Assembly (NCBI RefSeq): GCF_023101205.1
Contig: NZ_CP078078.1
Span: forward strand, 2,303,411 to 2,367,410
Length of the DNA: 64,000 nucleotides
Source: Microbacterium aurugineum
GTDB lineage: Bacteria > Actinomycetota > Actinomycetes > Actinomycetales > Microbacteriaceae
Direction of reading: 5' to 3'
This document shows, piece after piece, positions 40,707-53,878 of this stretch; the first letter of the stretch is position 1; each line of letters starts with the position of its first letter. The position numbers and the translations under genes are program-made. The notes below the pieces were generated by a model, which did no database searches, was not told where the DNA came from, and saw only the letters and a list, made by a program, of their open reading frames with translations.

Positions 40707-41176
40707 GCGGCGCAGGAGCACCCGAGACCGGCAACATCGACGGGCGGGGACTGAATGTCGTGATCGTGGCCGGCACCTGGCACGAGACGATCTCGAACGG
40801 CCTGATCGCCGGAGCCGAGCGTGTGCTGTCGGCAGCGCAGGCCACGCACCGACTGGTACGCGTGCCCGGATCCTTCGAGCTCGCGATCGCTGCGCAGGCG
40901 GCCTTCGCCGGTGGTGCGGATGCGGTCGTCGCGCTGGGCGTCATCATCCGCGGCGGGACCCCTCACTTCGAGTACGTGTCGGCGGCGACCACCGACGGCC
41001 TCACCCGGGTCGCGCTCGATGCCGGCAAGCCGGTCGGGTTCGGTGTGCTGACCCTCGACGACGAGCAGCAGGGACTCGACCGCGCGGGCCTCGAAGGCTC
41101 GAAGGAGGACAAGGGCGCCGAAGCTGCGGACGCTGCCCTGCGCACCGCCCTCGTGACCCGGGAGCTGCGCGGCTGA
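40703..41176 (+). CDS. ribH: 6,7-dimethyl-8-ribityllumazine synthase
   Basis: 157 residues. Motifs: VIVAGTWHETISNGLIAGAERVL, VRVPGSFELAIAAQAAF, VVALGVIIRGGTPHFEYVSAATTDGLTRVALDAGKPVGFGVLTLDDEQQGLDRAG. It condenses the ribityl pyrimidine with dihydroxybutanone phosphate. Normally His in the RGxTxHF(E/D)Y motif is catalytic, present here. ATGA overlap with ribBA. Last gene of the operon. Confidence 0.97.
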   Translation: MSGAGAPETGNIDGRGLNVVIVAGTWHETISNGLIAGAERVLSAAQATHRLVRVPGSFELAIAAQAAFAGGADAVVALGVIIRGGTPHFEYVSAATTDGLTRVALDAGKPVGFGVLTLDDEQQGLDRAGLEGSKEDKGAEAADAALRTALVTRELRG

Positions 41177-41188
41177 GGCGGGCGCGTG

Positions 41189-41266
41189 CACCTGTCGGGA
41201 GAATGACCGGACGAAGGGGCGAGACCGACGTTTCCGCCCGGCATACGTGCAGTCTCCCGACAGGTG
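41189..41266. repeat. Inverted repeat after ribH
   Basis: CACCTGTCGGGAGA (41189-41202) and its exact complement (41253-41266) flank 50 bases. It starts 13 bases after the ribH stop. It could end the riboflavin transcript, but the large loop and lack of a U-tract make a dispersed palindromic element equally likely. Nothing else is seen between 41177 and 41339. Confidence 0.65.
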
Positions 41267-41339
41267 AACACAGGCGCACGTCGATAGCCCGTGCCTGAGG
41301 TCAGCCTGCCCTTGCTAGCGCAGAAGGGCGCCGCACTCG

Positions 41340-41345
41340 TACGGT
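41340..41345 (+). promoter_or_regulatory. Leaderless -10 box for small membrane protein
   Basis: TACGGT ends six bases before the ATG at 41352. Confidence 0.6.
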
Positions 41346-41351
41346 GAGTGC

Positions 41352-41705
41352 ATGGAGACCCTCCGCCACATCGTGCTGTTCGTCCACCTCATCGGATTCG
41401 CCGTGCTCTTCGGCGCCTGGGCGGCGCAGGCGTTCGGGGGCAAGCGCCAGATCACGAAGATCATGGACTACGGCCTCGCCATCGCCGGTGTCGCGGGTCT
41501 CGCTCTCGCCGCACCGTGGGGTATCGAGTACGAGCTCAACTACGTCAAGATCGGCGTCAAGCTGGTCGTGCTGCTGATCATCGGTGCCCTGCTCGGCATC
41601 GGCTCCGCCCGTCAGAAGCGCGGCGCCGCCGTGCCGCCCGCCGTGTTCTGGCTGATCGGCATCCTGGCGCTCCTGAACGCGGGTCTCGCCGTCATCTGGC
41701 GCTGA
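41352..41705 (+). CDS. Small four-helix membrane protein, function unknown
   Basis: 117 residues with four predicted transmembrane segments (about 5-27, 40-60, 68-88, 94-114), little loop sequence and two His near the start (RHIVLFVHLIGF), reminiscent of short CopD/DUF-type haem or copper membrane proteins, though I cannot place it in a family. ATG with TACGGT six bases upstream, so probably leaderless. Its last 14 bases overlap the convergent FGGY kinase gene. Confidence 0.8.
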   Translation: METLRHIVLFVHLIGFAVLFGAWAAQAFGGKRQITKIMDYGLAIAGVAGLALAAPWGIEYELNYVKIGVKLVVLLIIGALLGIGSARQKRGAAVPPAVFWLIGILALLNAGLAVIWR

Positions 41706-43116
41706 CCGGCTCCTCCTCGTCGGCGAACAGTCGTCGTACGCGCGGCAGCAGCTGCTCGTACCTCCGCCGCACGTCGCCGTACGCGGTCGCCGCCTCGGCA
41801 TCGACCCCCACCTCCGTCCCCACCGCGACCATCGAGGTCACGGCGGCTTCCCATGTCGGGTGCATCCCCGTGCCGACCGCAGCGCAGATCGCAGCCCCGA
41901 TCCCCGCCGCGTCCTGCACGAGAGGTACGCGAACGGGCACCCCGTACACCGCAGCGAGGATGCGCAGCATGAGCATTGATCCGCTTCCACCGCCCGTGAC
42001 CAGCAGACGCCGTCGCCGCCGGCCCAGCGCCCGTCCTGCACGCGAATCCGCTGCCTCGGTCTCGATCGCGAGAGCCTCGAGGATCGCCCGATATATGTGG
42101 AACCGTCCCTGAGTGCCGTCGAAACCGACCAGCGCGCCCCGCCGCCAGGGCTCCTCGGCAGGTGCGAGCCAGTCGAGCGCGGCGACGAGCCCCCCGGCGC
42201 CGACAGGCACACTCTCGGCACCGCGATTCAGCTCGTCTTCAGTCGTCGCGGCACCGGCGTCCGACAGGAGATCACGGAACCAGCTGACGGTCCACATTCC
42301 CCGACGCACACCGCCGCTCTCGTAGAGGTAACGCCCCGGCTCCGACGCGAAATTCGTCCAGACATCGGGATGCGGCGGTAGCGGGCGATCCCCCGGGATC
42401 ATGGTGGCGACATAAGTGCCGAGCGAGAGCAGCACGTCGCCCTCGTCGCGCAGACCGGCGCCGAGGGCCTCCACGGCCTTGTCGTTCGCGGTCGCGATGA
42501 CCGGGATCCCCGCCGGGAGTCCGATGATCTCCGCAGCGGACTCCGTCAGAGTCCCCAGGACCTCACCCGGCGCGGCCAACTCGAACAGCATCGACGGCGC
42601 CATGCCCGTGCGGGCGTAGTCCTCGGCATCTTCGCTCCACTGCCAGCGCGCCGTGTCGATCGGCCAGACTCCCTGCACGTTACCGGCGGCGTCCCGCCGC
42701 TCTCCGGTGAGACGGTGCGCGAGGTAGCCCGAGGACGTCGTGACATAGACCGCATCGTCGACCTCGCGCTCGTAGGCGCGCGGGAGCCGCTCATCCATCC
42801 AGCTCATGATCGGCTGAGCGAGGGAGCCGTCAGCGCGCAGCACGGCCCGGCAGAACCGGATCGTGCACAGCCCGATGCCGTGGATCTCGGTAGTGTCTCC
42901 CCCGAACTCCGCCATCGCCCCGCGGACGGCAGCGACGATCGAGTCCCAGAGGTCGTCGTCCGGATGCTCCCAGCGGCCCGGCGCCGGCGACGCATACGGC
43001 CGCAGCCCGACGCGGGCACTCGCGTGCACGACGCCCAGACCGTCCACGATCAACACCTTGGTACTCTGGGAGCCGTTGTCGATCGCAATGACATAGCCCG
43101 TCGCTGGCGTGCTCAC
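41692..43116 (-). CDS. FGGY-family carbohydrate/polyol kinase
   Basis: 474 residues. Two-domain FGGY kinase: N-terminal phosphate-1 loop YVIAIDNGSQSTKVLIVDGLG, catalytic-region SWMDERLPRAYEREVDD, and the C-terminal ATP site LVTGGGSGSMLMLRILAAVYGVPV...DAAGIGAAICA. Together with its FAD-oxidase and SDR neighbours it resembles E. coli YgcE. The substrate is unknown; FGGY kinases act on sugars and polyols. GTG start overlaps the FAD oxidase stop (GTGA). Last gene of the ten-gene operon starting at 51858. Confidence 0.88.
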   Translation of the reverse strand: MSTPATGYVIAIDNGSQSTKVLIVDGLGVVHASARVGLRPYASPAPGRWEHPDDDLWDSIVAAVRGAMAEFGGDTTEIHGIGLCTIRFCRAVLRADGSLAQPIMSWMDERLPRAYEREVDDAVYVTTSSGYLAHRLTGERRDAAGNVQGVWPIDTARWQWSEDAEDYARTGMAPSMLFELAAPGEVLGTLTESAAEIIGLPAGIPVIATANDKAVEALGAGLRDEGDVLLSLGTYVATMIPGDRPLPPHPDVWTNFASEPGRYLYESGGVRRGMWTVSWFRDLLSDAGAATTEDELNRGAESVPVGAGGLVAALDWLAPAEEPWRRGALVGFDGTQGRFHIYRAILEALAIETEAADSRAGRALGRRRRRLLVTGGGSGSMLMLRILAAVYGVPVRVPLVQDAAGIGAAICAAVGTGMHPTWEAAVTSMVAVGTEVGVDAEAATAYGDVRRRYEQLLPRVRRLFADEEEPVSAR

Positions 43117-44597
43117 GTCCGCGGCCCCGTGTCACCATCGTCCAGCGGGTAGATGGTCCCCCGGTTCATGATCCCATGCGGATCCAGGCCGTCCTTCAGT
43201 GTCCGCAGCAACGAATAGGCGCTGCCGTGCTCCTCATGGGTCCACGGCGTCCGATACTTGCCGATACCGTGGTGATGCACCATGGACCCGCCCAGACGCA
43301 GGGCCTCTTCGACCACGATCGCGTTGAGCGGCTGATGGTACTCCGTGATCTCCTCGCGCGGCTCGCACGCGATGTCGTAGTCGTACACGAAGTAGAGATT
43401 CGTACCCGTCTGGTAACTGTGCGACGAGTGCGCGCCGAGCATCGTGAGATCCGCCGCGCGCGGGAACTCCGTGCGTGCGCGCCGCATCACGGAATCGAAG
43501 AGCTGCTCCACGCCCGACCAGTCGATCGACACCTCGGTCGTGTAGCCGAGGTGCGCCTTCTCGAGCATCTCGCGCTTCTCGGCGTCGATCTTGTCCTGTC
43601 CCCAGTTGAGGTTCTCGAACCACGCCTCGACCAGCGCGGGGTCGACCGGCTCATGCGGGATGTCAGCGAAGATCTCCTCGACACCTGCCGCAGTCGCGTC
43701 CGCGATGCCCCGTGGCCCCTCCGCCACCACCACCACGACAGCCCGGCCGTCCGCGAAGTGCGAGAAGTGCTGCGCGGCATCCTCTTCGGAGTATGCCCGC
43801 GCCACCGACGGACGGTAGCCGGCGACGATGATCTGCCGCAGACCGGCGACACCCGCCGGGAGCGAATCGACGAGATATCCGAGGAAACGATTGTTCTCCG
43901 GCTGGTACCGGAAGACCTTCACCGTAACCTCGGTGATCATGCAGAGGGCGCCCTCGTTGCCGATCACGATGTGGCGGATGTCGGGCCCGGCAGCCCGGCG
44001 CGGCACATTCTTGACCCGCACGACCTCGCCGCCGGGAAGCACCGCCTCGAGCCCCACCACCATGTCCTCGATCCCGCCGTACAGCGTGGAGAACTGGCCG
44101 ATCGACCGCGTGGCGACCAGCCCGCCCATCTGCGCGAGCGGCTTGGACTGCGGCGAGTGCCCGGTGGTGAGACCCTGTGCCCGCAGCGTGTCCTCGAGCA
44201 CCTGCAGCGGTACGCCACATTGCGCGGTGACCATCATGTCGACGGGATCGATCTCGAGAATGGCGTCCATCCGCGAGCCGTCGAGGACGATCGAATCCTC
44301 CACGATCGTCTCCAGGCCGCCCTCTGTCGCGGTGCGTCCCGTCCGCGGGACGATGTTGATGAGGTTCTCCTGCGCGAACGCAAGGATCGCCGCCACGTCC
44401 GCGGTCGAGCGCGCGTAGGCGATCGCCGTGGGAATCGGCCCGTCGAAGATCCCGTGCGCCGACGTGTACTTCTTGAATCGGTCGACGCTCGCCTCGCGTA
44501 GCGCCTGAGCGTCGGTCTCGACCTGGTCCGAGCCGAGGATATCCTGCAGCCGGGTGACGATCTCCTCACGAGAGAGCGCCGATCGTGAAGCAACCAT
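43113..44597 (-). CDS. FAD-dependent oxidase/dehydrogenase, AGPS/GlcD type
   Basis: 494 residues. PCMH-type FAD-binding domain (about residues 55-235): IVPRTGRTATEGGLETIVEDSIVLDGSRMDAILEIDPVDMMVTAQCGVPLQVLEDTLRAQGLTTGHSPQS, and a C-terminal FAD-oxidase C domain with VMHHHGIGKYRTPWT-type motif (GGSMVHHHGIGKYRTPW, about 455), the triple-His motif of alkyldihydroxyacetone-phosphate synthases. AGPS itself makes ether lipids, but bacterial homologues such as E. coli YgcU have undefined hydroxy-acid or polyol substrates. ATG start; GTGA overlap to the kinase downstream, 39 bases from the SDR upstream. Confidence 0.88.
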   Translation of the reverse strand: MVASRSALSREEIVTRLQDILGSDQVETDAQALREASVDRFKKYTSAHGIFDGPIPTAIAYARSTADVAAILAFAQENLINIVPRTGRTATEGGLETIVEDSIVLDGSRMDAILEIDPVDMMVTAQCGVPLQVLEDTLRAQGLTTGHSPQSKPLAQMGGLVATRSIGQFSTLYGGIEDMVVGLEAVLPGGEVVRVKNVPRRAAGPDIRHIVIGNEGALCMITEVTVKVFRYQPENNRFLGYLVDSLPAGVAGLRQIIVAGYRPSVARAYSEEDAAQHFSHFADGRAVVVVVAEGPRGIADATAAGVEEIFADIPHEPVDPALVEAWFENLNWGQDKIDAEKREMLEKAHLGYTTEVSIDWSGVEQLFDSVMRRARTEFPRAADLTMLGAHSSHSYQTGTNLYFVYDYDIACEPREEITEYHQPLNAIVVEEALRLGGSMVHHHGIGKYRTPWTHEEHGSAYSLLRTLKDGLDPHGIMNRGTIYPLDDGDTGPRT

Positions 44598-44636
44598 GGA
44601 ATGTGTCCTGTTCGTTGTGGGGGTCGGGTGCCGCGG

Positions 44637-45413
44637 TCAGCGGACCAGGTAGCCGCCGTCGACGGACAGCACGTGCCCGTTGACGAAGTCGGAAGCGCGG
44701 CTGGCGAGGAAGACGGTCGCGCCCATCAGGTCGGCGACGTCCCCCCACCTCCCCGCGGGTGTGTGATCGACGATGCGCTGGTTTGCCGCGGGGTCGGAGC
44801 GGGACTCCTCGGTGATCGGTGTGTTGAAGTAGCCGGGAGCGATCGCATTGACCTGGATGCCGTGGCTTCCGAGCTCGTCGGCGTAGGCCTTGGTCAGACC
44901 GGCGATGCCGTGCTTGGTCGCCGCGTAGGCCGGAGAGCCCAGACCGCCGAGGAAGGCGAAAAGCGAGGCGATGTTGATGATCTTGCCCGAGCCCTGCGGG
45001 ATCATGAGCTTCGCCGTCTCGTGCGACATCTCGAAAGCGGCCGTGAGGTTGACGGCGACCATCGGATCCCACAGTTCGCGTCCGAACTCGGTGACGTCGG
45101 CGATACGGCTGATTCCGGCGGAGTTGACCAGGATATCGACACCGCCGAGCGCGTCGACGCAGGCATCGAGAACTCGTGCCGGCGCGCCCTCCTCGGTGAT
45201 GTCGACGCGCTGCTCACGATAGCCGGCAGCGGTCCGCGCGAGGAGCGCAGCGGTCTCGCCGCCGTCGTCGAACAGCGTCGGGACGAAGACGTCGGCTCCC
45301 GCCTCGGCGAGCGCGAGCGTGAACGCCTGGCCGAGGCCGGTGTTGCCTCCCGTGACGATCGCACGCTTGCCCCGCAGGGAGAAGTGATCGAGGGAGAAAT
45401 CAGTGATGTGCAC
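44637..45413 (-). CDS. SDR-family oxidoreductase (KduD/YgcW-like)
   Basis: 258 residues. Classical short-chain dehydrogenase: NAD(P) motif AIVTGGNTGLGQAFTLALAEAG (about residues 19-40), LVNSAGISRI (about 93), catalytic S in NIASLFAFLGG, and Y-x3-K in SPAYAATKHGIAGLTKAYADEL (about 158-170), then VNAIAPGYFNTPIT. Closest by eye to 2-deoxy-gluconate/5-keto-gluconate dehydrogenases (KduD, YgcW). The GTG at 45413 has GAAGGAG about six bases upstream. Part of the ten-gene operon, 26 bases after the aldehyde dehydrogenase. Confidence 0.9.
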   Translation of the reverse strand: MHITDFSLDHFSLRGKRAIVTGGNTGLGQAFTLALAEAGADVFVPTLFDDGGETAALLARTAAGYREQRVDITEEGAPARVLDACVDALGGVDILVNSAGISRIADVTEFGRELWDPMVAVNLTAAFEMSHETAKLMIPQGSGKIINIASLFAFLGGLGSPAYAATKHGIAGLTKAYADELGSHGIQVNAIAPGYFNTPITEESRSDPAANQRIVDHTPAGRWGDVADLMGATVFLASRASDFVNGHVLSVDGGYLVR

Positions 45414-45439
45414 AGGGGCTCCTTCAGGAAGTGCGTCGT

Positions 45440-46912
45440 TCAGGCGAAGGGGTCGGAGATGCCGATATAGGTCGTCTCGAGGTACTCATCGATCCCTTCG
45501 AAACCGCCCTCGCGCCCGATACCCGACTGCTTGACACCGCCGAACGGCGCAGCCGGATTCGAGACGAGTCCGGTGTTGAGGCCGAACATGCCGGTTTCGA
45601 GCCGTTCGGCGAGGCGGAGCGCTCGGTTCAGGTCGCGTGTGTAGGCGAAGCACACCAGTCCGTACTCGCTCGCGTTCGCCAGCCGCACCGCCTCGTTCTC
45701 GTCGCGGAAGGTCGTGATCGGTGCGACCGGTCCGAAGATCTCCTCCCGCAGGATGCGTGCGTCCTGCGGGACGTCGACGAGCACGGTCGCCGGGTAGAAA
45801 AACCCGCGGCCCGACGGGACGCTGCCGCCCAGTGCGACTCGCGCGCCGTCCTCGACCGCGCCGGAGACGAGCTCGGCGACCTTTTCACGGGTCGACTCGT
45901 CGACGAGGGGACCGAGCATCGCATCCGGATCCGTTCCTCGCGCGTTCACGTAGCCGGCCATGCGATCGACGAGGCGCGAGGTGAACGCGTCGGCCACACT
46001 CTCATGTACGAGGAATCGATTCGCCGCGACGCATGCCTCGCCGCCGTTGCGCAGTTTCGCGAGCAGTGCACCCTCGACGGCAGCGTCGACATCGGCATCC
46101 TCGAACACGAGGAACGGCGCGTTGCCGCCGAGCTCCATCGACACCCGCAGCACCTGGTGCGCGGCATCGGCGATCAAGCGACGACCGACGTCGGTCGACC
46201 CCGTGAACGACAGCTTACGCAGGCGCGGATCGGTGATGAGCGGCCCGGTGACCGCGCCGGCACGGCTGGTCGAGATGACGTTGACGACCCCATCGGGCAC
46301 TCCGGCCTCGCGCAGCACTTCGGCGAACAGCAGGGCGGTGAGAGGCGTGAGCGCCGCAGGCTTGAGCACCGAGGTGCACCCGGCGGCGAGCGCGGGAGCG
46401 ATCTTGCGCGTTGCCATCGCGAGCGGGAAGTTCCAGGGCGTGATGAGCAGGCTCGGTCCGACCGGACGCTTCGCGACCAGAAGCCGGTTTCGACCGTCCG
46501 GCGCGGTCGCGTATCGCCCGGAGATGCGCGGGGCCTCCTCCGAGAACCAGCGCAGGAACTCGGCGCCGTAGGCCACCTCGGCCCGTGACTCGGCGAGGGG
46601 TTTACCCATCTCGAGTGTCATGACCAGTGCGAAGTCGTCGGCGCGCGCGGTCACGAGTTCGAAGGCGCGGCGCAGGATCTCACCGCGGACGCGCGGCGCC
46701 GTATCCGCCCAGCCGGCTTGGGCCGCCACCGCCGCATCGAGGGCTGCCATGCCGTCCTCCGCTGTCGCGTCGGCGACTTCGGCGAGCACCTCGCCGGTCG
46801 ACGGATCGTGCACCTCGAAGGTGCGACCGGAGCTGGCGGAGCGCCATTCCCCGCCGATCAGCAGACAGGTAGGCACCGAGGCGATGACCTCGGTCTCGCG
46901 AAGGGCGGTCAT
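45440..46912 (-). CDS. Aldehyde dehydrogenase, succinate-semialdehyde dehydrogenase-like
   Basis: 490 residues. ALDH superfamily with the catalytic Glu in VSMELGGNAPFLVFEDADVD (about residue 258) and catalytic Cys in RNGGEACVAANRFLVHESV (about 290), LITPWNFPLAMATRKIAPALAAGCTSVLKPA and LSFTGSTDVGRRLI cofactor motifs. GabD-like overall. In this operon it probably oxidises a semialdehyde formed by the upstream dehydrogenase. ATG start overlapping the 3-hydroxyisobutyrate-dehydrogenase-type gene (ATGA). Confidence 0.9.
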   Translation of the reverse strand: MTALRETEVIASVPTCLLIGGEWRSASSGRTFEVHDPSTGEVLAEVADATAEDGMAALDAAVAAQAGWADTAPRVRGEILRRAFELVTARADDFALVMTLEMGKPLAESRAEVAYGAEFLRWFSEEAPRISGRYATAPDGRNRLLVAKRPVGPSLLITPWNFPLAMATRKIAPALAAGCTSVLKPAALTPLTALLFAEVLREAGVPDGVVNVISTSRAGAVTGPLITDPRLRKLSFTGSTDVGRRLIADAAHQVLRVSMELGGNAPFLVFEDADVDAAVEGALLAKLRNGGEACVAANRFLVHESVADAFTSRLVDRMAGYVNARGTDPDAMLGPLVDESTREKVAELVSGAVEDGARVALGGSVPSGRGFFYPATVLVDVPQDARILREEIFGPVAPITTFRDENEAVRLANASEYGLVCFAYTRDLNRALRLAERLETGMFGLNTGLVSNPAAPFGGVKQSGIGREGGFEGIDEYLETTYIGISDPFA

Positions 46913-47862
46913 GCGGCCACCTCCCGACGCAGATCGCGGCCGAGGAGCTCCTCGTACAAGCGCACCGGGGCCATCTCCCCCGCACGGTCCCCGTAGCTCG
47001 CGCGGGCGCGTCGGAAGATCTGCTCGACGAGCGAGGACAGTTCCACGGGCATGCCCACAGAGCGGGCGAGGTCGACCGAGAGTCCCAGGTCCTTGCAGGC
47101 GAGGGCGATCGCGAAGCCCTCGTCGTAGTCCCCGTGGTCGAGGATCGACAGCACGTCACGCGAGACGAACGTGCTGTTGGCCGGGCTCGCGATGAGCGCA
47201 TCCCGCAGGACGCCGAGATCGACTCCTGCCGCGACACCGACCGACAGCACCTCGGCGGTCGCGACCAGGTGCGAGAACCACAACTGATTGATCATGAGCT
47301 TCACCGCGTATCCGGCGCCGTGTCGTCCCACGTGGAGGATCCGCTCGGGATCTCCCATCGCCTCGAAGACGGGACGCAAGCGCTCGACGTCCTCCGCCTC
47401 GCCACCCACGAAGATCTGCAGCATGCCGTTCGCCGCCCCCACCGACATCCCGCTCACGGGCGCGTCGAGCAGGTGCAGGTCTCGCCCGGTGGTCGCCGCG
47501 CGAACGCCGTCGAGCACGTCTGGCACCGAGGTGGACATGTCGATCCAGGTACCGCCGTCCGGAAGCCCGGCGACCAGTCCGTCCGGCCCCGAGGCCACGG
47601 CCTCGACGTGTTTCGGCGTTGGCAGCATCGTGATCACCAGGTCGCTGGACGCTGCGACGTCACGAGGCGTGTCCGCCCAGCGAGCGCCGCCGGCGAGCAA
47701 CTCGGACGCCGACTCGCGCCGGAGGTCGGTGACCACGAGCGGGAAACCGGCCGCCTGAAGGTTTCGGGTCATGCCGGAGCCCATGTTGCCGAGGCCGATG
47801 AACCCGACGGTGGGCCGGGTCTCGGTGTGTGCGGGGTCGAGCACAGGGGTGGGGGAACTCAT
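46909..47862 (-). CDS. Beta-hydroxyacid dehydrogenase (3-hydroxyisobutyrate dehydrogenase family)
   Basis: 317 residues. Rossmann motif TVGFIGLGNMGSGMTRNLQAAGFPLVVTDLRRE (about residues 17-50; the Asp/Arg mix makes NAD or NADP uncertain), substrate-binding LLDAPVSGMSVGAANGMLQIFVGG (about 135-158) and catalytic Lys in GAGYAVKLMINQL (about 188). Oxidises a beta-hydroxyacid to a semialdehyde, a fit with the aldehyde dehydrogenase whose gene overlaps it. ATGA overlap also with the fae-like gene upstream. Confidence 0.9.
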   Translation of the reverse strand: MSSPTPVLDPAHTETRPTVGFIGLGNMGSGMTRNLQAAGFPLVVTDLRRESASELLAGGARWADTPRDVAASSDLVITMLPTPKHVEAVASGPDGLVAGLPDGGTWIDMSTSVPDVLDGVRAATTGRDLHLLDAPVSGMSVGAANGMLQIFVGGEAEDVERLRPVFEAMGDPERILHVGRHGAGYAVKLMINQLWFSHLVATAEVLSVGVAAGVDLGVLRDALIASPANSTFVSRDVLSILDHGDYDEGFAIALACKDLGLSVDLARSVGMPVELSSLVEQIFRRARASYGDRAGEMAPVRLYEELLGRDLRREVAA

Positions 47863-48395
47863 AGGTCGTGCGTTTCCTTCGAGACGGGGGCGGCGGAGGT
47901 GAAGAAGGGGTTGCGGGGCTCGTGCCGCACGGCCAGGACCTCGTCGAGGTCGGGCAGCCCGGCGGCACCGTTGGCGAGAGCGGTGCGGATCGCCTCGCGA
48001 TTGTTCCGATAGACGGCCTCGGCATCATCGGCCGCGGGATTCACCCACACGGCCGCGATGAGCGCGTGCGTGTCCGCGGCCTCACGGGGGATCGTGCCGT
48101 CGGCGACTGCATCCGCGACGCCGGACGCGACACCCGCCTGCGCAGGGCCCCAGATGAGGAGCCCGTGCTCCTCGCTCGCCGGGGCGGCCTTGGTGACGAA
48201 CAGCGTCATCGGCTTGACCGGGAGGGACGGGCGGAGCACCGCCACGAAGGGCACGTGCCCCTGGCTGGGGCCGGCGAGGGCCGTGGCCCACGCCGTACCC
48301 GCCGGGCCTTCACGATGGCCGAGCACCGTGTTGATGTGCGCCGCGTTCGCGCCGTCCCCGACGAAGCTCTCACCGAGCTGAAGGGTCGAGACCAT
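47859..48395 (-). CDS. Formaldehyde-activating enzyme (Fae) family protein
   Basis: 178 residues. The Fae domain is clear: LGESFVGDGANAAHINTVLG (residues 7-26) with the conserved active-site His at H20, FVAVLRPSLPVKPMTLFVTKA (about 50-70), IWGPAQAGVASGVADAVADGTIPREAADTHALIAAVWVNPAADD (about 81-124), and the C-terminal NPFFTSAAP. In methylotrophs Fae condenses formaldehyde with tetrahydromethanopterin. Differences: the second His of the usual GPAQHGVA is Ala, and AHID is AHIN. No methanopterin gene is in the window, so the pterin partner (or a formaldehyde-adduct role) is unknown. ATG overlaps the stop of the binding-protein gene (TGATG). Confidence 0.88.
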   Translation of the reverse strand: MVSTLQLGESFVGDGANAAHINTVLGHREGPAGTAWATALAGPSQGHVPFVAVLRPSLPVKPMTLFVTKAAPASEEHGLLIWGPAQAGVASGVADAVADGTIPREAADTHALIAAVWVNPAADDAEAVYRNNREAIRTALANGAAGLPDLDEVLAVRHEPRNPFFTSAAPVSKETHDL

Positions 48396-49336
48396 CAGAT
48401 GAGCCCCTGATCTTCGAGCCAGTCGATCGCGATGTCTTCCGGGTCCTCCCCGTCGACGTCGGCCTTGGCGTTGAGCTCCTGCATAACCTCGGTGGTCAGT
48501 AGTGGGCTCAGCTTCGCCAGCACATCGGCGATCGCCGGATAGTCGTCCAGCGTGCTCTGCTTGAGCGTGAAGCCGCCCTGGTAGCTCGGGAAGAACTCCT
48601 TGTCATCGGCCATGACCACCAGATCGAGCGCCGGGATGCGACCATCGGTCTGGAACACCTCGCCGAAGTTGCAGTCATCGCCCTTCTGGGTCGCGGTGTA
48701 GATGACGCCGGTGTCCAGCATCGTGACGTTGGCGTCGGGTGCGTCGAACCCGTAGGCCGCCTTGAGACCGGGCCAGCCGTCGTCCCGCGTGGAGAACTCG
48801 CTCTCGATACAGAACGTCTGATCAGCGCTCGGGAGCTTCGCCACATCACTGAGAGTCTTCACACCCAGCTCGTCGGCCTCGCTCTGACGGATCGCGAAGG
48901 CATAGGTGTTGTTGAACGGGGCGGGGTCGAGCCACGCGATGCCGTTCACGGCGTCGGCCTCCTTGACCGCCTCGAACTGCGCCTCAGCGCCCTGCACCGG
49001 CGCGGTGTTGCCGTTGTAGGTGATCCAGGAGGTGCCGGTGTACTCCCAGTAGCCGAGGAACTGGTCGTTCTCGAGCGCCTGGCGCACATTGGCGGATCCG
49101 ACCAGCTTGGTGTTGGCCTCGACGTCGGCGCCGTGTGCGTTGAGCAACTCGGCCGTCATGTAAGCGAGGATGTACTGCTCGGAGAAGTCCTTGGAGCCGA
49201 TCTCTCCGGTGAGACCGTTGAGCTCGTCGCCCTGGGCGCCGGAGCCACCGCCGGAGCTGGAAGTGCAGCCGGTAAGGAGCAGGGCGCCGGCGGCGAGTGC
49301 GGCGAACGAAGCGGATGCGATGGTGCGGGTTTTCAT
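48395..49336 (-). CDS. Osmoprotectant-type ABC transporter substrate-binding lipoprotein
   Basis: 313 residues. Lipoprotein signal with lipobox LLTGC (Cys about residue 24) and a Ser/Gly linker, then an OpuAC/OsmX-type domain: GEIGSKDFSEQYILAYMTAELLNAHGADVEANTKLVGSANVRQALENDQFLGYWEYTGTSWITYNG. That class binds glycine betaine, choline, carnitine and other quaternary or zwitterionic solutes in an aromatic cage; suitable Tyr/Trp residues are seen but not mapped. ATG at 49336 with AAAGGAA seven bases upstream. Third-from-promoter group of transporter genes; it is immediately followed by fae. Confidence 0.92.
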   Translation of the reverse strand: MKTRTIASASFAALAAGALLLTGCTSSSGGGSGAQGDELNGLTGEIGSKDFSEQYILAYMTAELLNAHGADVEANTKLVGSANVRQALENDQFLGYWEYTGTSWITYNGNTAPVQGAEAQFEAVKEADAVNGIAWLDPAPFNNTYAFAIRQSEADELGVKTLSDVAKLPSADQTFCIESEFSTRDDGWPGLKAAYGFDAPDANVTMLDTGVIYTATQKGDDCNFGEVFQTDGRIPALDLVVMADDKEFFPSYQGGFTLKQSTLDDYPAIADVLAKLSPLLTTEVMQELNAKADVDGEDPEDIAIDWLEDQGLI

Positions 49337-49368
49337 TGCGGTTCCTTTCGGGAAGGGAGCGATGGAGG

Positions 49369-50160
49369 TCAGAGACCCTTGGGGCGCACGATGTCCTCCA
49401 CGACACCGGCCGCCCAGTCGATGAGCACGGCGATCGCGGCGACCAGGACCGCGCCAACGACGAGAACGGGATAGCGCTGCAGCTTGAGGCCGTTGATGAT
49501 CATGTCGCCGAGACCGCCGGCATTGATGAACGTCGCGACCGTGGCCACTCCGACGGCGAAGACGAGGGCCGTCCGAAGCCCCGCGAGGATCACGGGTGAG
49601 GCGAGCGGAAGCTCGACCCGGCACAGCACCTGGGATGAGGTCATGCCCATGCCCCGAGCCGATTCGCGGATGTTCGGATCGACCTGCGCGAGCCCGGTAA
49701 TCGTGTTCTGCAGCACGGGCAGGAAGGAATAGATGACGAGGGCGAGGAGAGCTGTCGTGAATCCGGTCTGCCAGACGATCGCGAGCAGGATCACGACCCC
49801 GATCGCCGGAGTGGCCTGCCCGATGTTGGCGATGCCGATCACGATGCCGCGGAAGACCTTCGAGCGCGATCGGCTCACGGCGATGCCGGCCGGGATGGCG
49901 AGCACGGCGACGAGGACGGAGGCGATGATCGAGAGCACGAGGTGCTCGCCGATCCGCGACGTGATGTAGCCGGCGTTGAGGGTGCGCCGTTCGATCGAGT
50001 CGAGCTCCAGGCTGGTGACCCACGCGTAGGTGAGCAGCAGCACGACGGCGACGACGATCAGCGGCATCGTTCGGCGCAGCAGCACGGGCATCCCCCGGCG
50101 CTGCACGTTCTGGGTCTGCACCACCGTGGTCGCCGAAGGGACCACCTGCGGGCCGGTCAT
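49369..50160 (-). CDS. Osmoprotectant-type ABC transporter permease
   Basis: 263 residues. Six hydrophobic segments after a 30-residue polar N-terminus. The binding-protein-dependent transport motif is ESARGMGMTSSQVLCRVELPLASPVILAGLRTALVFAVGVATVATFI (about residues 145-190), with the EAA loop typical of OpuCB/OpuCD. Pairs with the second permease (51193-51858) and the ATPase. RBS not strong. 32 bases separate it from the binding-protein gene. Confidence 0.92.
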   Translation of the reverse strand: MTGPQVVPSATTVVQTQNVQRRGMPVLLRRTMPLIVVAVVLLLTYAWVTSLELDSIERRTLNAGYITSRIGEHLVLSIIASVLVAVLAIPAGIAVSRSRSKVFRGIVIGIANIGQATPAIGVVILLAIVWQTGFTTALLALVIYSFLPVLQNTITGLAQVDPNIRESARGMGMTSSQVLCRVELPLASPVILAGLRTALVFAVGVATVATFINAGGLGDMIINGLKLQRYPVLVVGAVLVAAIAVLIDWAAGVVEDIVRPKGL

Positions 50161-50162
50161 GC

Positions 50163-51200
50163 TCAGGCCTCCTCGGCACGGCGTGCGGGCCCTTCGGCCC
50201 CGAGCGCCGCAGAGATCGCCGCCTGATCGATCGAGCCGACGGCGGTCCCACTACGCGTCACGTTGACGCGCGGGGCGCCGGTGACGACGAGCGTGTCGAG
50301 GGCCTCCCGCAGGGAGGCGTGCTCATCGACGGACGCCGCGGGTGCTGCGGTGTCCACCGCCCCGATACGGGCATCGGTCACGGGGATGAGGGCGAGCCGC
50401 TTGAGCGCGGCACCCTCTCCGATGAACGAGCGCACGTAGTCGTTGGCGGGTTCCGCGAGGATGCGCGCCGGGGTGTCGAACTGCTCGATCCGGCTGCGAT
50501 CGCTGAGCACCGCGATGCGGTCCCCCATCCGGATGGCCTCTTCGAAGTCGTGCGTGACGAAGATGATGGTCTTGCCGATGTCCGCCTGCAGCCGGAGGAA
50601 CTCGGCCTGCAGCTTCTCGCGTGTGATCGGATCGGTGGCCCCGAAAGGCTCGTCCATGAGCATGACGGGAGGGTCGGCGGCGAGCGCCCTGGCCACGCCG
50701 ACACGCTGCTGCTGACCGCCGGACAGCTGACGCGGGTAGCGCTGCGCGAACGTGCCAGGGTCGAGCTGGACGGTACGCAGGAGCTCATCGACGCGATCGG
50801 CGATCCGCGACTTCGACCACCCGAGGAGCTTCGGCACGATCGCGATGTTCTCCGCGATCGTGAAGTGCGGAAACAGACCGATCTGTTGGATGACGTATCC
50901 GATGTGCCGGCGCAGCTCGTTGCCATCCAGTGACAGCACGTCGTCGCCGTTGATGCGGATGGAACCGGAGGTGGGTTCGATGATGCGGTTGATCATCTTC
51001 ATGGTCGTGGTCTTGCCGCAGCCGCTGGGACCGACGAACATGATCAGCTCGCCCGGTTCCACGCGCATCGAGAAGTCCTCGACGGCCGGCACCTGCTGCC
51101 CCGGGTACTGCTTCGTGATGTGGTCGAGCACGATGTCGGCCCCGCCCTGCTGGGCCGCGAGCGAGGAGAGAACGCCGGTGTTCGTAGTGATGTCAGGCAC
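50163..51200 (-). CDS. Osmoprotectant-type ABC transporter ATP-binding protein
   Basis: 345 residues. Walker A FVGPSGCGKTTTMKMI (about residue 53), Q-loop VIQQIGLFPHF, signature RQLSGGQQQRVGVARAL, Walker B PVMLMDEPFGATD, and H-loop IIFVTHDFEEA. Extra C-terminal region (about 265-340) includes one CBS-like stretch (DEHASLREALDTLVVTGAPRVNVTRSG), as in OpuA/OpuC ATPases, which sense ionic strength. GTG start at 51200 with AAGGGG seven bases upstream; it overlaps the first permease gene by 8 bases. Confidence 0.92.
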   Translation of the reverse strand: MPDITTNTGVLSSLAAQQGGADIVLDHITKQYPGQQVPAVEDFSMRVEPGELIMFVGPSGCGKTTTMKMINRIIEPTSGSIRINGDDVLSLDGNELRRHIGYVIQQIGLFPHFTIAENIAIVPKLLGWSKSRIADRVDELLRTVQLDPGTFAQRYPRQLSGGQQQRVGVARALAADPPVMLMDEPFGATDPITREKLQAEFLRLQADIGKTIIFVTHDFEEAIRMGDRIAVLSDRSRIEQFDTPARILAEPANDYVRSFIGEGAALKRLALIPVTDARIGAVDTAAPAASVDEHASLREALDTLVVTGAPRVNVTRSGTAVGSIDQAAISAALGAEGPARRAEEA

Positions 51201-51858
51201 GGAGACCCCTTGAAGTGGTAAGGCGGGCGACGAGCACGAGGATGCCGTCAAGGATGAGAGCGAGGAGGATCACGACGACGGTGCCGGTGAGGGCGTAGTT
51301 GAGCGCGTTCTTCGAGCCGAGCGAGCTCAGCCCCTTGAAGATGTACTCGCCCAGTCCGGGACCGGCGACGTAAGCGGCGATCGCCGCGATGCCGACGGTG
51401 AGCTGGGCTGCCACGCGGATTCCGGTCATGATGACCGGCCACGCGATCGGGAGCTGAACCGTGAAGAGGATGCGGGTCGGCCCGAGGCCCATGCCGCGCG
51501 CCGATTCGAGCACTGCGACGGGGACTTCGCGGAGCCCCACGACGGTGTTCCGAACCACCGGGAGCAAAGAGTAAAAGACCAGTGCTACGACGGTGGGAAG
51601 CCAGCCGAGACCGAGCACTGGGCTCAGGAGAGCGAGGAGGGCGAGCGAAGGGATCGTGATAGCGACCGCTGCGGCGGTGAGGACGCTGGTCCGGGCGACA
51701 CGGCGGTCGCGGACCAGGATACCGAGACCCATTCCGATGATCGCCGCCAAGACGACCGAGATGATGACGACGACGAGGTGATCGCGGGTGAGTTCGAGGA
51801 TGTCGTCCGCACGACGTGTGAGGAAGGCCATGAGGTCTTCCCAGTTGAATCCGGACAA
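51193..51858 (-). CDS. Osmoprotectant-type ABC transporter permease, first gene of the operon
   Basis: 221 residues from the TTG at 51858. Five to six transmembrane segments, with the EAA-type loop VAVLESARGMGLGPTRILFTVQLPIAWPVIMTGIRVAAQL (about residues 110-150). The start is chosen because AGGAG lies five bases before the TTG and because the predicted promoter (-10 at 51910-51905) would place transcription start near 51898, downstream of the alternative ATG at 51924. An extended 243-residue form from 51924 is possible if an upstream promoter is used. Confidence 0.88.
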   Translation of the reverse strand: MSGFNWEDLMAFLTRRADDILELTRDHLVVVIISVVLAAIIGMGLGILVRDRRVARTSVLTAAAVAITIPSLALLALLSPVLGLGWLPTVVALVFYSLLPVVRNTVVGLREVPVAVLESARGMGLGPTRILFTVQLPIAWPVIMTGIRVAAQLTVGIAAIAAYVAGPGLGEYIFKGLSSLGSKNALNYALTGTVVVILLALILDGILVLVARLTTSRGLRA

Positions 51859-51904
51859 GGGGGCTCCTGTCTCGTCGCTGAGGCCGGTACCGGGTATGAG
51901 ATTC

Positions 51905-51932
51905 ACCGTAGCTTGCGTAACCATTTCGTCAA
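51905..51932 (-). promoter_or_regulatory. Promoter of the transporter-fae-dehydrogenase operon
   Basis: On the minus strand, -35 TTGACG (51932-51927), 16-base spacer, -10 TACGGT (51910-51905). Transcription start about 51898 gives a 40-base leader with AGGAG before TTG 51858. Confidence 0.6.
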
Positions 51933-51936
51933 ATAG

Positions 51937-51955
51937 AGTTGTCTATATGGCAACT
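51937..51955. promoter_or_regulatory. Putative IclR operator
   Basis: Imperfect palindrome AGTTGTC-TATAT-GGCAACT (one mismatch between arms) centred between the divergent starts, upstream of the operon's -35 and overlapping the region 20 bases before iclR's -10. Placement fits IclR control of both directions. Confidence 0.55.
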
Positions 51956-51963
51956 ATTGACGC

Positions 51964-51969
51964 TAAACT
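51964..51969 (+). promoter_or_regulatory. Leaderless -10 box for iclR
   Basis: TAAACT ends six bases before the GTG at 51976. Confidence 0.6.
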
Positions 51970-51975
51970 CCCGTT

Positions 51976-52827
51976 GTGACCACCACGACACCCTCAGCCC
52001 CCCGGCGCAACTCCTCCGGCCTCGGGCGCGACATCGAGATCCTCGAACTCCTCGGCGGAGACGACGCTCTTCGATCGGGCGGACTCGGCGTGTCCCAAGT
52101 CGCCCAGGCGACCGGACGTGACAAGGCCGTCGTCTCCCGTACGCTCGCGACCCTCGCCGAGACGGGGCTCGTGGAGCGCGACGAGGAGACGCTGCGGTAT
52201 CTCCTCGGGCCTCGGCTGTACGCCCTCGCCGCGCACACCGCCACCTCCACGCTCGTGCACGCCTCGCGCAGCATCCTCCGCCGCCTCGTGCAGTCAACGC
52301 GCGAGACCAGCCACCTCTGCGTGCTGCGCGGCGGCAACGTGCTGACCCTGCTGAGCGAACTCAGTCCGCACGACGTACGCACGACGGGCTGGGCCGGCAC
52401 GACGACGGCTGCCTGGCGCACCCCATCGGGCCGCGCGCTGCTGAGCGACTGGGACGACGAGTCCCTCGCCCGCTGGTACGACGACCACGGACAGGACCAG
52501 CCGCTCGTGGGGCGCTTCGACCAGGCGGATCCGTTCGGATTTCCCGTGCTCGACGCTCCCCCACCGGGAAACTCGCCCGTGGCCGACCTCGACAGCCTGC
52601 ACGCCGAGCTCGCCCGCATCCGCGAACAGGGCTACGCCCTCTCCGACGAGGAACTCGAGTTCGGAGTCGTCGCAGCGTCCGCACCCATCGTCGACTTCAC
52701 GGGTCGCATCGTCGCCGCCGTGAATGTGAGCGCGCCGAAGGCCCGCATCGGTCCCCGTCTCGACGCACTGGGAGCCCTCGTCTCCCGCGCCGCGCGCGAG
52801 CTCTCCTCCCGCCTGGGGGCGAGCTGA
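51976..52827 (+). CDS. IclR family transcriptional regulator
   Basis: 283 residues. N-terminal winged helix-turn-helix (about residues 15-75: RDIEILELLGGDDALRSGGLGVSQVAQATGRDKAVVSRTLATLAETGLVERDEETLRYLLG) and C-terminal IclR effector domain (about 95-280), ending AAVNVSAPKARIGPRLDALGALVSRAARELSSRL. The ligand pocket cannot be read. GTG start with TAAACT six bases upstream. Divergent from the ten-gene fae operon with a palindrome between, so it is the likely sensor of that pathway's substrate or intermediate. Confidence 0.92.
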   Translation: MTTTTPSAPRRNSSGLGRDIEILELLGGDDALRSGGLGVSQVAQATGRDKAVVSRTLATLAETGLVERDEETLRYLLGPRLYALAAHTATSTLVHASRSILRRLVQSTRETSHLCVLRGGNVLTLLSELSPHDVRTTGWAGTTTAAWRTPSGRALLSDWDDESLARWYDDHGQDQPLVGRFDQADPFGFPVLDAPPPGNSPVADLDSLHAELARIREQGYALSDEELEFGVVAASAPIVDFTGRIVAAVNVSAPKARIGPRLDALGALVSRAARELSSRLGAS

Positions 52828-52840
52828 CCGGCTTCTCTCC

Positions 52841-53878
52841 TCAGCGCTTCCGCGGAGGTGCCGTGCTCGCGCGCACGATGAGTTCGCAGCTCACGAGCGG
52901 CGTCTGCTGACGTCCGGTGCCGTCGAGCTCGGCGAGCAGCGCGTCCACCGCGAGAGCTCCCACGCGTTCCGGATGCTGCTGCACGGTGGTCAGGGGCGGC
53001 CACAGCTGTGCAGCGTCGGGCAGGCCGTCGAAACCGACGATGCTGACGTCGCCCGGCACCTCGCGGCCGACCTCGCGAAAGGCCCTCAGCACGCCGATCG
53101 CCATCTGGTCGTTCGCGGCGAAGACGGCGGTGACCTCGCCGCGCTCGCGCAGTTCGACACCGGCTTCGTAACCCGACGCGGCGGACCAGTCCCCCGGCAG
53201 CGGCTCCGGCACGCGACGCCCGTGCTGCTCCAGCGTCTCCCTCCAGGCCTCCCTGCGTCGCTCCGCGGAGTAGGAACGGGCGGGACCGGCGACGTGCCAG
53301 ACGGTCTCATGCCCGAGTTCGAGCAGGTGCTCGGTCGCCAAGCGGGCACCCTGCGCCTGATCCGTGTCGACGAACGGATGGGTCTCGCCGCGGTTCGAGT
53401 CGACGAACACGACGGGGAGGGCCTCGGGGATCTCGATGTCGGCCTCGTCGAGCTGGTGCGCCTCGATCACGATGATGATGCCGTCAACGGCATGCTCTTC
53501 GAGCCTCCGGAACGCACCGGCCACGGTCTCACCGGCACTCGACTCCACCGGGATGAGGGTGAGGGCATAGCCGAGCTGGGCGGCGCGCACCGCGATCGCG
53601 TCGAGCGTGCGCTGATTTCCGTACGAGCTGAACGAGAACATCACGACGCCGATGGTGCGGAAGCGTCCTGATCGCAGAGCACGCGCCGCGCTGTTGGGCC
53701 GGTAGCCGAGACGATGCATCGCGGCTTCGACGCGCTCACGGGTGGTCGCACCGACGTAGCCCCGGGCGTTCACGACGCGGGACACGGTCTGCCCTGAGAC
53801 TCCGGCCTCCCGGGCGACGTCCTCCATGGAGGGCTCACGACGACGCGTCGACGTCTCGGTCGGATGCTCTGGGCTCAC
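52841..53878 (-). CDS. LacI family regulator of beta-galactoside cluster
   Basis: 345 residues. LacI helix-turn-helix (SMEDVAREAGVSGQTVSRVVNARGYVGATTRERVEAAMHRLGYRPNSAARALRSG, about residues 17-70) and a periplasmic-binding-protein-like effector domain (IGVVMFSFSSYGNQRTLDAIAVRAAQLGY... VTAVFAANDQMAIGVLRAFREVGREVPGDVSIVGFDG). GTG at 53878 is chosen: GAGGGGATGGG precedes it and a TAGTGT box (53917-53912) would start the mRNA near 53905; the ATG at 53896 is the alternative and would lie at the edge of an operator. It probably represses the divergent ABC/GH35 genes. Confidence 0.92.
   Translation of the reverse strand: MSPEHPTETSTRRREPSMEDVAREAGVSGQTVSRVVNARGYVGATTRERVEAAMHRLGYRPNSAARALRSGRFRTIGVVMFSFSSYGNQRTLDAIAVRAAQLGYALTLIPVESSAGETVAGAFRRLEEHAVDGIIIVIEAHQLDEADIEIPEALPVVFVDSNRGETHPFVDTDQAQGARLATEHLLELGHETVWHVAGPARSYSAERRREAWRETLEQHGRRVPEPLPGDWSAASGYEAGVELRERGEVTAVFAANDQMAIGVLRAFREVGREVPGDVSIVGFDGLPDAAQLWPPLTTVQQHPERVGALAVDALLAELDGTGRQQTPLVSCELIVRASTAPPRKR

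Follow-up and report, generated by a model that had tools for sequence, protein, structure and literature searches.

A stretch of 64,000 nucleotides of the Microbacterium aurugineum genome (contig NZ_CP078078.1, positions 2,303,411 to 2,367,410; the whole stretch is called the window below) carries ten minus-strand genes which combine an importer of the OpuC/Osm type with a member of the formaldehyde-activating enzyme (Fae) family, dehydrogenases, a flavoprotein and a kinase. The host genome consists of one contig of 3.63 Mb and encodes a single Fae copy. Protein families were assigned with Pfam and NCBIfam profiles, and related loci were collected in one scan of named genomes, which detects close relatives only and yielded 62 Fae loci; several of their contigs end within the cluster. 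The locus contains the following features:

51976..52827, plus strand: divergent IclR-family regulator, 283 aa; homologue in 39 of the 62 Fae loci; the family name was taken from the initial annotation of the window and from plasmid annotations of relatives.
51938..51954, minus strand: operator-like motif GTTGCCATANNNNCAAC between iclR and the operon, where the gap holds GTTGCCATATAGACAAC; sole exact match in the 3.6-Mb genome.
51193..51924, minus strand: OpuC/Osm-type permease A, 243 aa; PF00528; best NCBIfam model ProW/ChoW, under the cut-offs; homologue in 34 of the 62 Fae loci.
50163..51200, minus strand: ABC ATPase of the betaine/proline/choline family, 345 aa, GTG start; TIGR01186 (proV) 310.5 bits, cut-off 326.6.
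49369..50160, minus strand: OpuC/Osm-type permease B, 263 aa; PF00528.
48395..49336, minus strand: substrate-binding lipoprotein (SBP) of the OpuAC/OsmF type, 313 aa; PF04069, 192 bits.
47859..48395, minus strand: Fae-like protein, 178 aa; PF08714, 176 bits; distinct from the canonical, tetrahydromethanopterin (H4MPT)-dependent Fae.
46909..47862, minus strand: beta-hydroxyacid dehydrogenase (BHAD), 317 aa; PF03446 (NAD_binding_2) and PF14833 (NAD_binding_11); putative homoserine-betaine dehydrogenase.
45440..46912, minus strand: aldehyde dehydrogenase (ALDH) resembling succinate-semialdehyde dehydrogenase (SSADH), 490 aa; Aldedh; TIGR01780 (SSADH) 536 bits, cut-off 646; putative fumarate-semialdehyde dehydrogenase.
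44637..45413, minus strand: YgcW-like short-chain dehydrogenase/reductase (SDR), 258 aa, GTG start; KduD-like; proposed to oxidise the glyceryl C2 hydroxyl.
43113..44597, minus strand: AGPS-like, YgcU-like flavoprotein, 494 aa; FAD_binding_4 and FAD-oxidase_C; putative ether-cleaving enzyme.
41692..43116, minus strand: YgcE-like FGGY kinase, 474 aa, GTG start; PF00370/PF02782 (FGGY_N/C).

All ten open reading frames (ORFs) are intact, and the Pfam and NCBIfam profiles agree with the families named in the initial annotation. They span 41692-51924 with intergenic gaps of -8 to +39 nt, in detail -8 (permease/ATPase), +2 (ATPase/permease), +32 (permease/SBP), -1 (SBP/Fae), -4 (Fae/BHAD), -4 (BHAD/ALDH), +26 (ALDH/SDR), +39 (SDR/flavoprotein) and -4 nt (flavoprotein/kinase). 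The extent first given, 41692..51976, thus holds for the gene set and has to be corrected at the 5' limit, since 51976 is the start of iclR and the operon begins with its start codon at 51924, leaving a divergent gap of 51 bp.

The importer is complete, comprising an OpuAC lipoprotein, a ProV-class ATPase slightly below the subfamily cut-off and two permeases, and it shares this composition and the conserved aromatic residues with the OpuC/OsmF/ProX importers; unlike these, it forms part of a catabolic operon and lies next to an IclR regulator. The best PDB relatives of the SBP are the binding proteins of acetylcholine and nicotine sensors and osmoprotection proteins, which bears out the earlier assignment of the importer to the quaternary-ammonium class. 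Y99, Y213 and Y252 of the SBP are invariant in 27 of 27 homologues and Y145 is nearly invariant in an alignment of 23 sequences; these four tyrosines may correspond to the aromatic cage of AfProX.

An OpuC-type importer was found in 34 of the 62 Fae loci (three of them, L015, L060 and L061, in more distant lineages), BHAD in 38, ALDH in 35, the trio of SDR, flavoprotein and kinase in 18 and iclR in 39. All ten genes together with iclR are present in 14 loci. The gene order of the window is kept in 12 of these (L002, L004, L005, L006, L007, L009, L010, L018, L020, L022, L025 and L026), which fall in Microbacterium, Umezawaea, Nocardioides and Leucobacter, and differs in L015 and L030; the conservation of gene order exceeds chance. 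In a sample of 299 Microbacteriaceae genomes Fae was present in 31, 30 of them with loci, and among the 29 loci other than that of the window the SBP gene adjoins fae in 26 and iclR in three. The ten-gene cluster is conserved across actinobacterial genera. The sample also contains five other genomes of the host genus, all without Fae, so the operon is accessory. The view that these genes form one conserved catabolic operon is supported, and we consider it likely that this operon serves the catabolism of a quaternary-ammonium compound. Catabolism of carnitine or choline was rejected, since no enzyme family from those routes was recognised among the ten proteins.

Thirteen importer-bearing loci without the trio (L012-L014, L016, L017, L019, L024, L027-L029, L034, L048 and L063) constitute a version B of the operon, with an enolase-superfamily enzyme, a second aldehyde dehydrogenase (ALDH2) and an iron-dependent alcohol dehydrogenase (Fe-ADH), the families of which were checked on one protein each. 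L039 and L045 have the version B genes plus the trio and lack the OpuC importer; one ORF of L039, read from sequence alone, resembles an Opp permease. Besides, related OpuC importers on plasmids of Paracoccus, Shinella and Ancylobacter (L108, L110, L111) adjoin a nitrilase-family hydrolase, in some cases also genes for an acyl-CoA dehydrogenase, MmgE/PrpD or a ring-hydroxylating dioxygenase, and perhaps belong to another quaternary-ammonium route.

The core TTGCCAT of the operator-like motif was found in 31 of 39 homologous iclR/operon gaps (the window and 38 loci), whereas shuffling gave a mean of 0.66 and random windows drawn from these loci 0.54; the shuffle figure overstates the significance because the gap sequences are related. 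The core is kept in six of the eight gaps in which iclR faces fae directly and not the importer. The 17-mer pattern occurs once in the host genome and once in three of nine other genomes, there at positions consistent with the operon, and has no match in the remaining six; a reversed control pattern gave one match (G603). A simple sigma-70-like promoter scan of 40500-53500 revealed nothing above chance. The promoter that iclR and the operon had been thought to share is thus not supported, whereas a common operator-like motif is, and IclR would control the operon through one dedicated site.

The substrate may be the head group that remains when the betaine lipid diacylglyceryl-N,N,N-trimethylhomoserine (DGTS) is deacylated, glyceryl-N,N,N-trimethylhomoserine; for relatives lacking the trio it may be free homoserine betaine. 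Our tentative reading of the operon is the substrate-induced catabolism of such a compound. In this scheme the OpuC-type importer would take up the zwitterion, the SDR would oxidise the C2 hydroxyl of the glyceryl part and the FGGY kinase would phosphorylate its free end to give alkyl-dihydroxyacetone phosphate (alkyl-DHAP). The AGPS-like flavoprotein would then carry out the chemistry of alkyl-DHAP synthase in reverse, releasing DHAP and homoserine betaine. BHAD would convert homoserine betaine to the semialdehyde, the Fae-like protein would eliminate trimethylamine beta to the aldehyde in a C-N lyase step, and the SSADH-like ALDH would oxidise the resulting fumarate semialdehyde to fumarate. 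We infer these steps from family membership, residues and gene swaps, with gene order, the operator-like site, the residues themselves and the pattern across genomes as the observations behind them; the identity of the substrate and the Fae-like reaction would be the weakest links, the latter being the boldest step. In the excerpts of the cited papers that were available, homoserine betaine is described as a natural osmolyte (PMC5864184, PMC13403184), and betaine lipids are described to replace phosphatidylcholine in many algae and non-flowering plants (PMC9892843) and phospholipids in phosphate-starved bacteria (PMC10132767).

The trio would fit the removal of a glyceryl ether, the type of bond present in the DGTS head group. 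The last three proteins of the operon correspond to E. coli YgcW (SDR, 62% identity), YgcU (flavoprotein, 61%) and YgcE (kinase, 44%), and the SDR is 57-66% identical to the SDRs of other trio loci. AGPS is, by sequence, the closest solved relative of the flavoprotein, with guinea-pig AGPS as best PDB match (3e-43) beside Dictyostelium ADPS (2.4e-39). R267, Y402 and H441-H443 are invariant in 19 of 19 homologues and represent the Arg, Tyr and His-His-His of AGPS/ADPS, of which we presume the Arg and His residues to act in catalysis; the designation as AGPS-type is thereby supported. The enzyme has HHHG where glycolate oxidase has EHG, and it scores 134 bits with the glycolate oxidase GlcD model TIGR00387 (cut-off 568). 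A usual glycolate or lactate dehydrogenase was rejected on the basis of this score and the HHH motif. In Dictyostelium ADPS this Tyr aligns with residue 505 of the PDB chain, which, given an offset of 3, would be the Tyr508 that the corresponding paper, in the part available, describes as the base (PMC3509576); the same excerpt describes AGPS as making alkyl-DHAP via a flavin-DHAP adduct without net redox. The context of ether-lipid synthesis was not encountered: unlike AGPS/ADPS, the flavoprotein is encoded in a catabolic operon, no lipid-synthesis gene was recognised beside it, its neighbours being importer, kinase and dehydrogenases, and its relatives sometimes occur with genes of an electron-transferring flavoprotein (ETF). 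The kinase had been expected to act on a polyol-like part of the substrate, and here this would probably be the glyceryl part.

A protein search gave at least 3932 relatives of the flavoprotein; close relatives (E <= 1e-100) are present in three of 296 Actinomycetota genomes, including the host, and in two of 398 Pseudomonadota genomes. In all seven annotated trio records read, the kinase shares a region with the SDR and flavoprotein genes. We read eleven further trio loci that do not belong to the Fae set; two actinobacterial ones were labelled by BLAST against our own reference set only, and a divergent relative in Roseibium is left out of these counts. A glycerol-3-phosphate (G3P)-responsive antiterminator is encoded in six of the eleven (E. 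coli, its two relatives, Streptomyces and two Enterococcus), and a quaternary-ammonium transporter lies near the trio in two Enterococcus (OpuC) and in Vibrio (BCCT). The E. coli ygcW-ygcU-ygcE region (with ygcP, ygcQR, ygcS and yqcE) has the SDR, flavoprotein and kinase as well as the G3P-type antiterminator YgcP, but it contains carriers of the major facilitator superfamily (MFS) and ETF genes and lacks an OpuC importer, Fae and ALDH.

The Fae-like protein scored above the curated cut-offs of both family models (PF08714, cut-off 27 bits; TIGR03126, 154 bits, cut-off 118) and has H20, K69 and Q86 in common with canonical Fae, H20 presumably being the general acid. It is, however, only 34-37% identical to three aligned canonical proteins, and at 27 positions that are more than 90% conserved in 66 Fae-like proteins, among them N22, H47, F50, H77, W82, W117, N119 and P120, the residue is seen in none of these three. 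A signature of 17 positions reads GEHNPHFKHWQWNPNNN in the window protein and GEHDNFLKQFQFHWYNH in canonical Fae; the window protein is identical in it to eight tested Fae-like proteins of Beta- and Gammaproteobacteria, and the mch-linked copies differ, the canonical set being a small one of four proteins besides the divergent L151. This L151 (Caballeronia, G610) is a third, divergent Fae-family protein that fits neither signature. Among 6017 candidates, a protein search with the Fae-like protein found 4639 relatives at E <= 1e-30, which may include canonical ones.

Mch (PF02289), taken as marker for H4MPT, was found in none of the 31 Fae-bearing Microbacteriaceae genomes, including the host, nor in five plasmid records. 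Of the 62 named loci, 31 had their genomes tested as well, incomplete metagenome bins among them; three of these genomes have Mch and 28 lack it. All three belong to Caballeronia/Burkholderia and have a canonical fae about 2 kb from mch as well as a separate Fae-like copy beside an aldo-keto reductase (AKR). A function of the protein as H4MPT enzyme in this operon was rejected on the result for the Microbacteriaceae. The Fae-like protein is a paralogue distinct from canonical Fae and very likely has a different job in the operon.

Which job this may be is suggested by gene clusters in which Fae is replaced. Other Fae clusters have an AKR or a zinc-dependent alcohol dehydrogenase (Zn-ADH) in place of BHAD, and the window ALDH shares 46-67% identity with five Fae-linked ALDHs. 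Clusters in Vibrio, Ensifer and Priestia, for which no literature description was found, have the AKR, MFS carrier, Opp transporter or trio in common with the Fae clusters, but contain an aspartase-like lyase and another ALDH instead of Fae and the SSADH-like ALDH. Vibrio pelagius encodes a BCCT transporter, the trio, the lyase, an ALDH and an AKR within about 14 kb, and Priestia the trio with lyase, ALDH, Zn-ADH and an MFS carrier within 10 kb. The V. pelagius AKR and that of Caballeronia Fae-AKR-ALDH clusters share 70-73% identity. Eleven other plasmid records have an AKR at 60-80% identity, eight from Caballeronia/Burkholderia, all with fae adjacent by coordinates, and three from Ensifer, of which the one read has the order lyase-ALDH2-AKR-Opp. 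At 46-48% identity an AKR was found in three more plasmid records, two from Neorhizobium (AKR match alone) and one from Ensifer (L100), which reads AKR-Fae-ALDH and continues with Opp subunits that share 73-76% identity with three of the four subunits in the lyase strain. In 398 Pseudomonadota genomes the AKR (E <= 1e-110) was present in seven, with Fae beside it in six and the lyase in one. Furthermore, an MFS carrier 65% identical to that of Priestia lies beside Fae in two Proteobacteria, and one of these (G787) carries the ygc trio as well.

Lyase and Fae were not found together: a close relative of the Vibrio lyase was detected in none of 15 Fae-bearing genomes (best 199 bits at 29-33% identity, a score like that of an aspartase/fumarase), and the lyase genome G719 has no Fae. 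Scored against the Vibrio lyase, the Ensifer and Priestia lyases reached 351 and 277 bits and a second Priestia protein 211, so the margin is narrow. All five lyases of such loci (Ensifer, two close Vibrio relatives, Priestia and Peribacillus) have Ile, Ala/Ser and Cys at three pocket positions occupied by Thr, Asn and Gln in E. coli aspartase, positions which we take to contact the amino group; two more distant lyases, with no AKR or trio seen nearby, keep the aspartase residues. In Peribacillus, a plasmid ORF of 856 aa (L119:11986-14556) holds a shortened aspartase-like lyase and a BCCT transporter in one frame. The ALDHs fall by score into a Fae-linked and a lyase-linked group, ALDH2 of version B being nearer the latter. 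The lyase clusters combine an aspartase-type lyase with an ALDH and an alcohol dehydrogenase, some with quaternary-ammonium transport, a set that would fit a route from homoserine betaine via the semialdehyde and aspartate betaine to fumarate and trimethylamine. The Fae-like protein may stand in for the aspartase-like lyase, and its step would replace the oxidise-first lyase reaction of other bacteria by one in which elimination precedes oxidation. This substitution by a C-N lyase, together with the absence of Mch from the 31 Microbacteriaceae genomes and the 27 changed positions, argues against the original suggestion that formaldehyde is a direct product.

Several observations weigh against the proposed route. 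In only three of the eleven non-Fae trio loci does a quaternary-ammonium transporter lie within about 10 kb, MFS carriers occur in five (E. coli, its two relatives, Ilyobacter and Priestia), and no transporter was recognised beside the trio in Streptomyces and the two actinobacterial genomes. ETF genes lie near the trio in E. coli, one relative, Enterococcus and Ilyobacter (EtfB only was seen in the other relative), an indication that the flavoprotein, in contrast to AGPS, gives off electrons. The divergent Roseibium relative (31% identity) sits with sugar ABC genes, a xylulokinase and a glycerol dehydrogenase. The trio was seen together with the lyase in V. pelagius and Priestia only, no trio was detected in the lyase genome G719 at the threshold applied, and the AKRs of the two Ensifer swap records are only 48% identical. 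The scheme leaves three version B enzymes without a role, the enolase-superfamily enzyme, ALDH2 and Fe-ADH. Finally, 13 of the 62 Fae loci (L031, L033, L036, L047, L049, L051, L053-L058 and L062, from uncultured or metagenome-assembled actinobacteria) have a HalD-like Fe/2-oxoglutarate (Fe/2OG) oxygenase (PF23169 on the one protein tested) before fae, as would suit a role in formaldehyde metabolism; no OpuC importer was seen in these 13 loci, several of which lie on short contigs, and one (L055) carries an ALDH2-like gene.

Some of these points would be explained if a quaternary-ammonium compound without an ether were degraded, the trio acting on another polyol or hydroxyacid part and the flavoprotein working with ETF as a dehydrogenase of 2-hydroxyacids or polyols. 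The ETF genes in E. coli, Enterococcus and Ilyobacter, the MFS carriers at the E. coli trio and the sugar genes by the divergent relative speak for it, as does the top model of the kinase, xylulokinase, albeit far under its cut-off. We nevertheless regard this explanation as rather unlikely, since the flavoprotein has the Arg/Tyr/HHH of AGPS and not the EHG of glycolate oxidase, and the G3P-responsive antiterminator accompanies six of the eleven trio loci.

If, instead, an N-methylated substrate were demethylated, the Fae-like protein would handle the freed formaldehyde, and tetrahydrofolate or mycothiol could then take the place of H4MPT. Membership in the Fae family is in line with this, the HalD-like oxygenase is a possible demethylase, and other functions of Fae have been proposed earlier (PMC3728764, in the part available). 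But neither a demethylase nor a Rieske or C1-pathway family was recognised among the ten proteins, Mch is absent from 31 of 31 genomes, conserved residues are changed, and the aspartase-like lyase found in the place of Fae is not known to act on formaldehyde. Demethylation is thus an unlikely explanation.

Another betaine lipid, diacylglyceryl-hydroxymethyl-trimethyl-beta-alanine (DGTA), is also naturally occurring and ether-linked according to the sections available of a review (PMC9892843). Its head group, 2-(hydroxymethyl)-trimethyl-beta-alanine, would be freed by ether cleavage as an alcohol analogous to 3-hydroxyisobutyrate and oxidised by BHAD, whose closest solved relatives are indeed 3-hydroxyisobutyrate and tartronate-semialdehyde enzymes; the Fae-like protein would then release trimethylamine or formaldehyde by elimination or retro-aldol cleavage. 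Both this substrate and this version of the Fae step appear quite improbable, since the aspartase-like lyase of the parallel clusters fits a succinyl skeleton (homoserine or aspartate betaine) and not a malonyl skeleton, and the ALDH is SSADH-like.

If the operon simply served osmoprotectant uptake and its metabolic genes were unrelated additions, the class of the importer would be accounted for; this reading is very improbable, since the operator-like site stays with fae in six of the eight loci where iclR faces fae, on which ground free-standing osmoprotection was rejected, and the gene order is kept in 12 complete loci from four genera.

Beyond iclR, the ORF list of the window shows between 52841 and 55796 a minus-strand gene for a LacI-type-looking regulator, divergent from two sugar ABC permease genes; these neighbours of iclR are apparently a separate sugar uptake system.

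Among the listed literature matches (open-licence PMC papers) on the ygc genes, Fae homologues, actinobacterial Fae with betaine transport, homoserine-betaine lyases and betaine-lipid catabolism, no pathway description was found. This agrees with the initial annotation, which knew of no pathway with this gene set, with the qualification that the last trio is the uncharacterised E. coli ygcW-ygcU-ygcE set. A 2023 review states, in the sections available, that the enzyme breaking the DGTS ether is not known (PMC9892843). The operon might represent the first catabolic route for betaine-lipid head groups, with a reversed AGPS relative that breaks the DGTS ether and a trimethylamine-eliminating Fae fold that is interchangeable with an aspartase-like lyase, although we consider this combination doubtful. 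If true, it would provide candidate enzymes and a route from betaine-lipid carbon to fumarate, DHAP and trimethylamine, and the same logic would give the E. coli ygcW-ygcU-ygcE genes a candidate function. Genes annotated as formaldehyde-activating enzyme in organisms without H4MPT may act otherwise.

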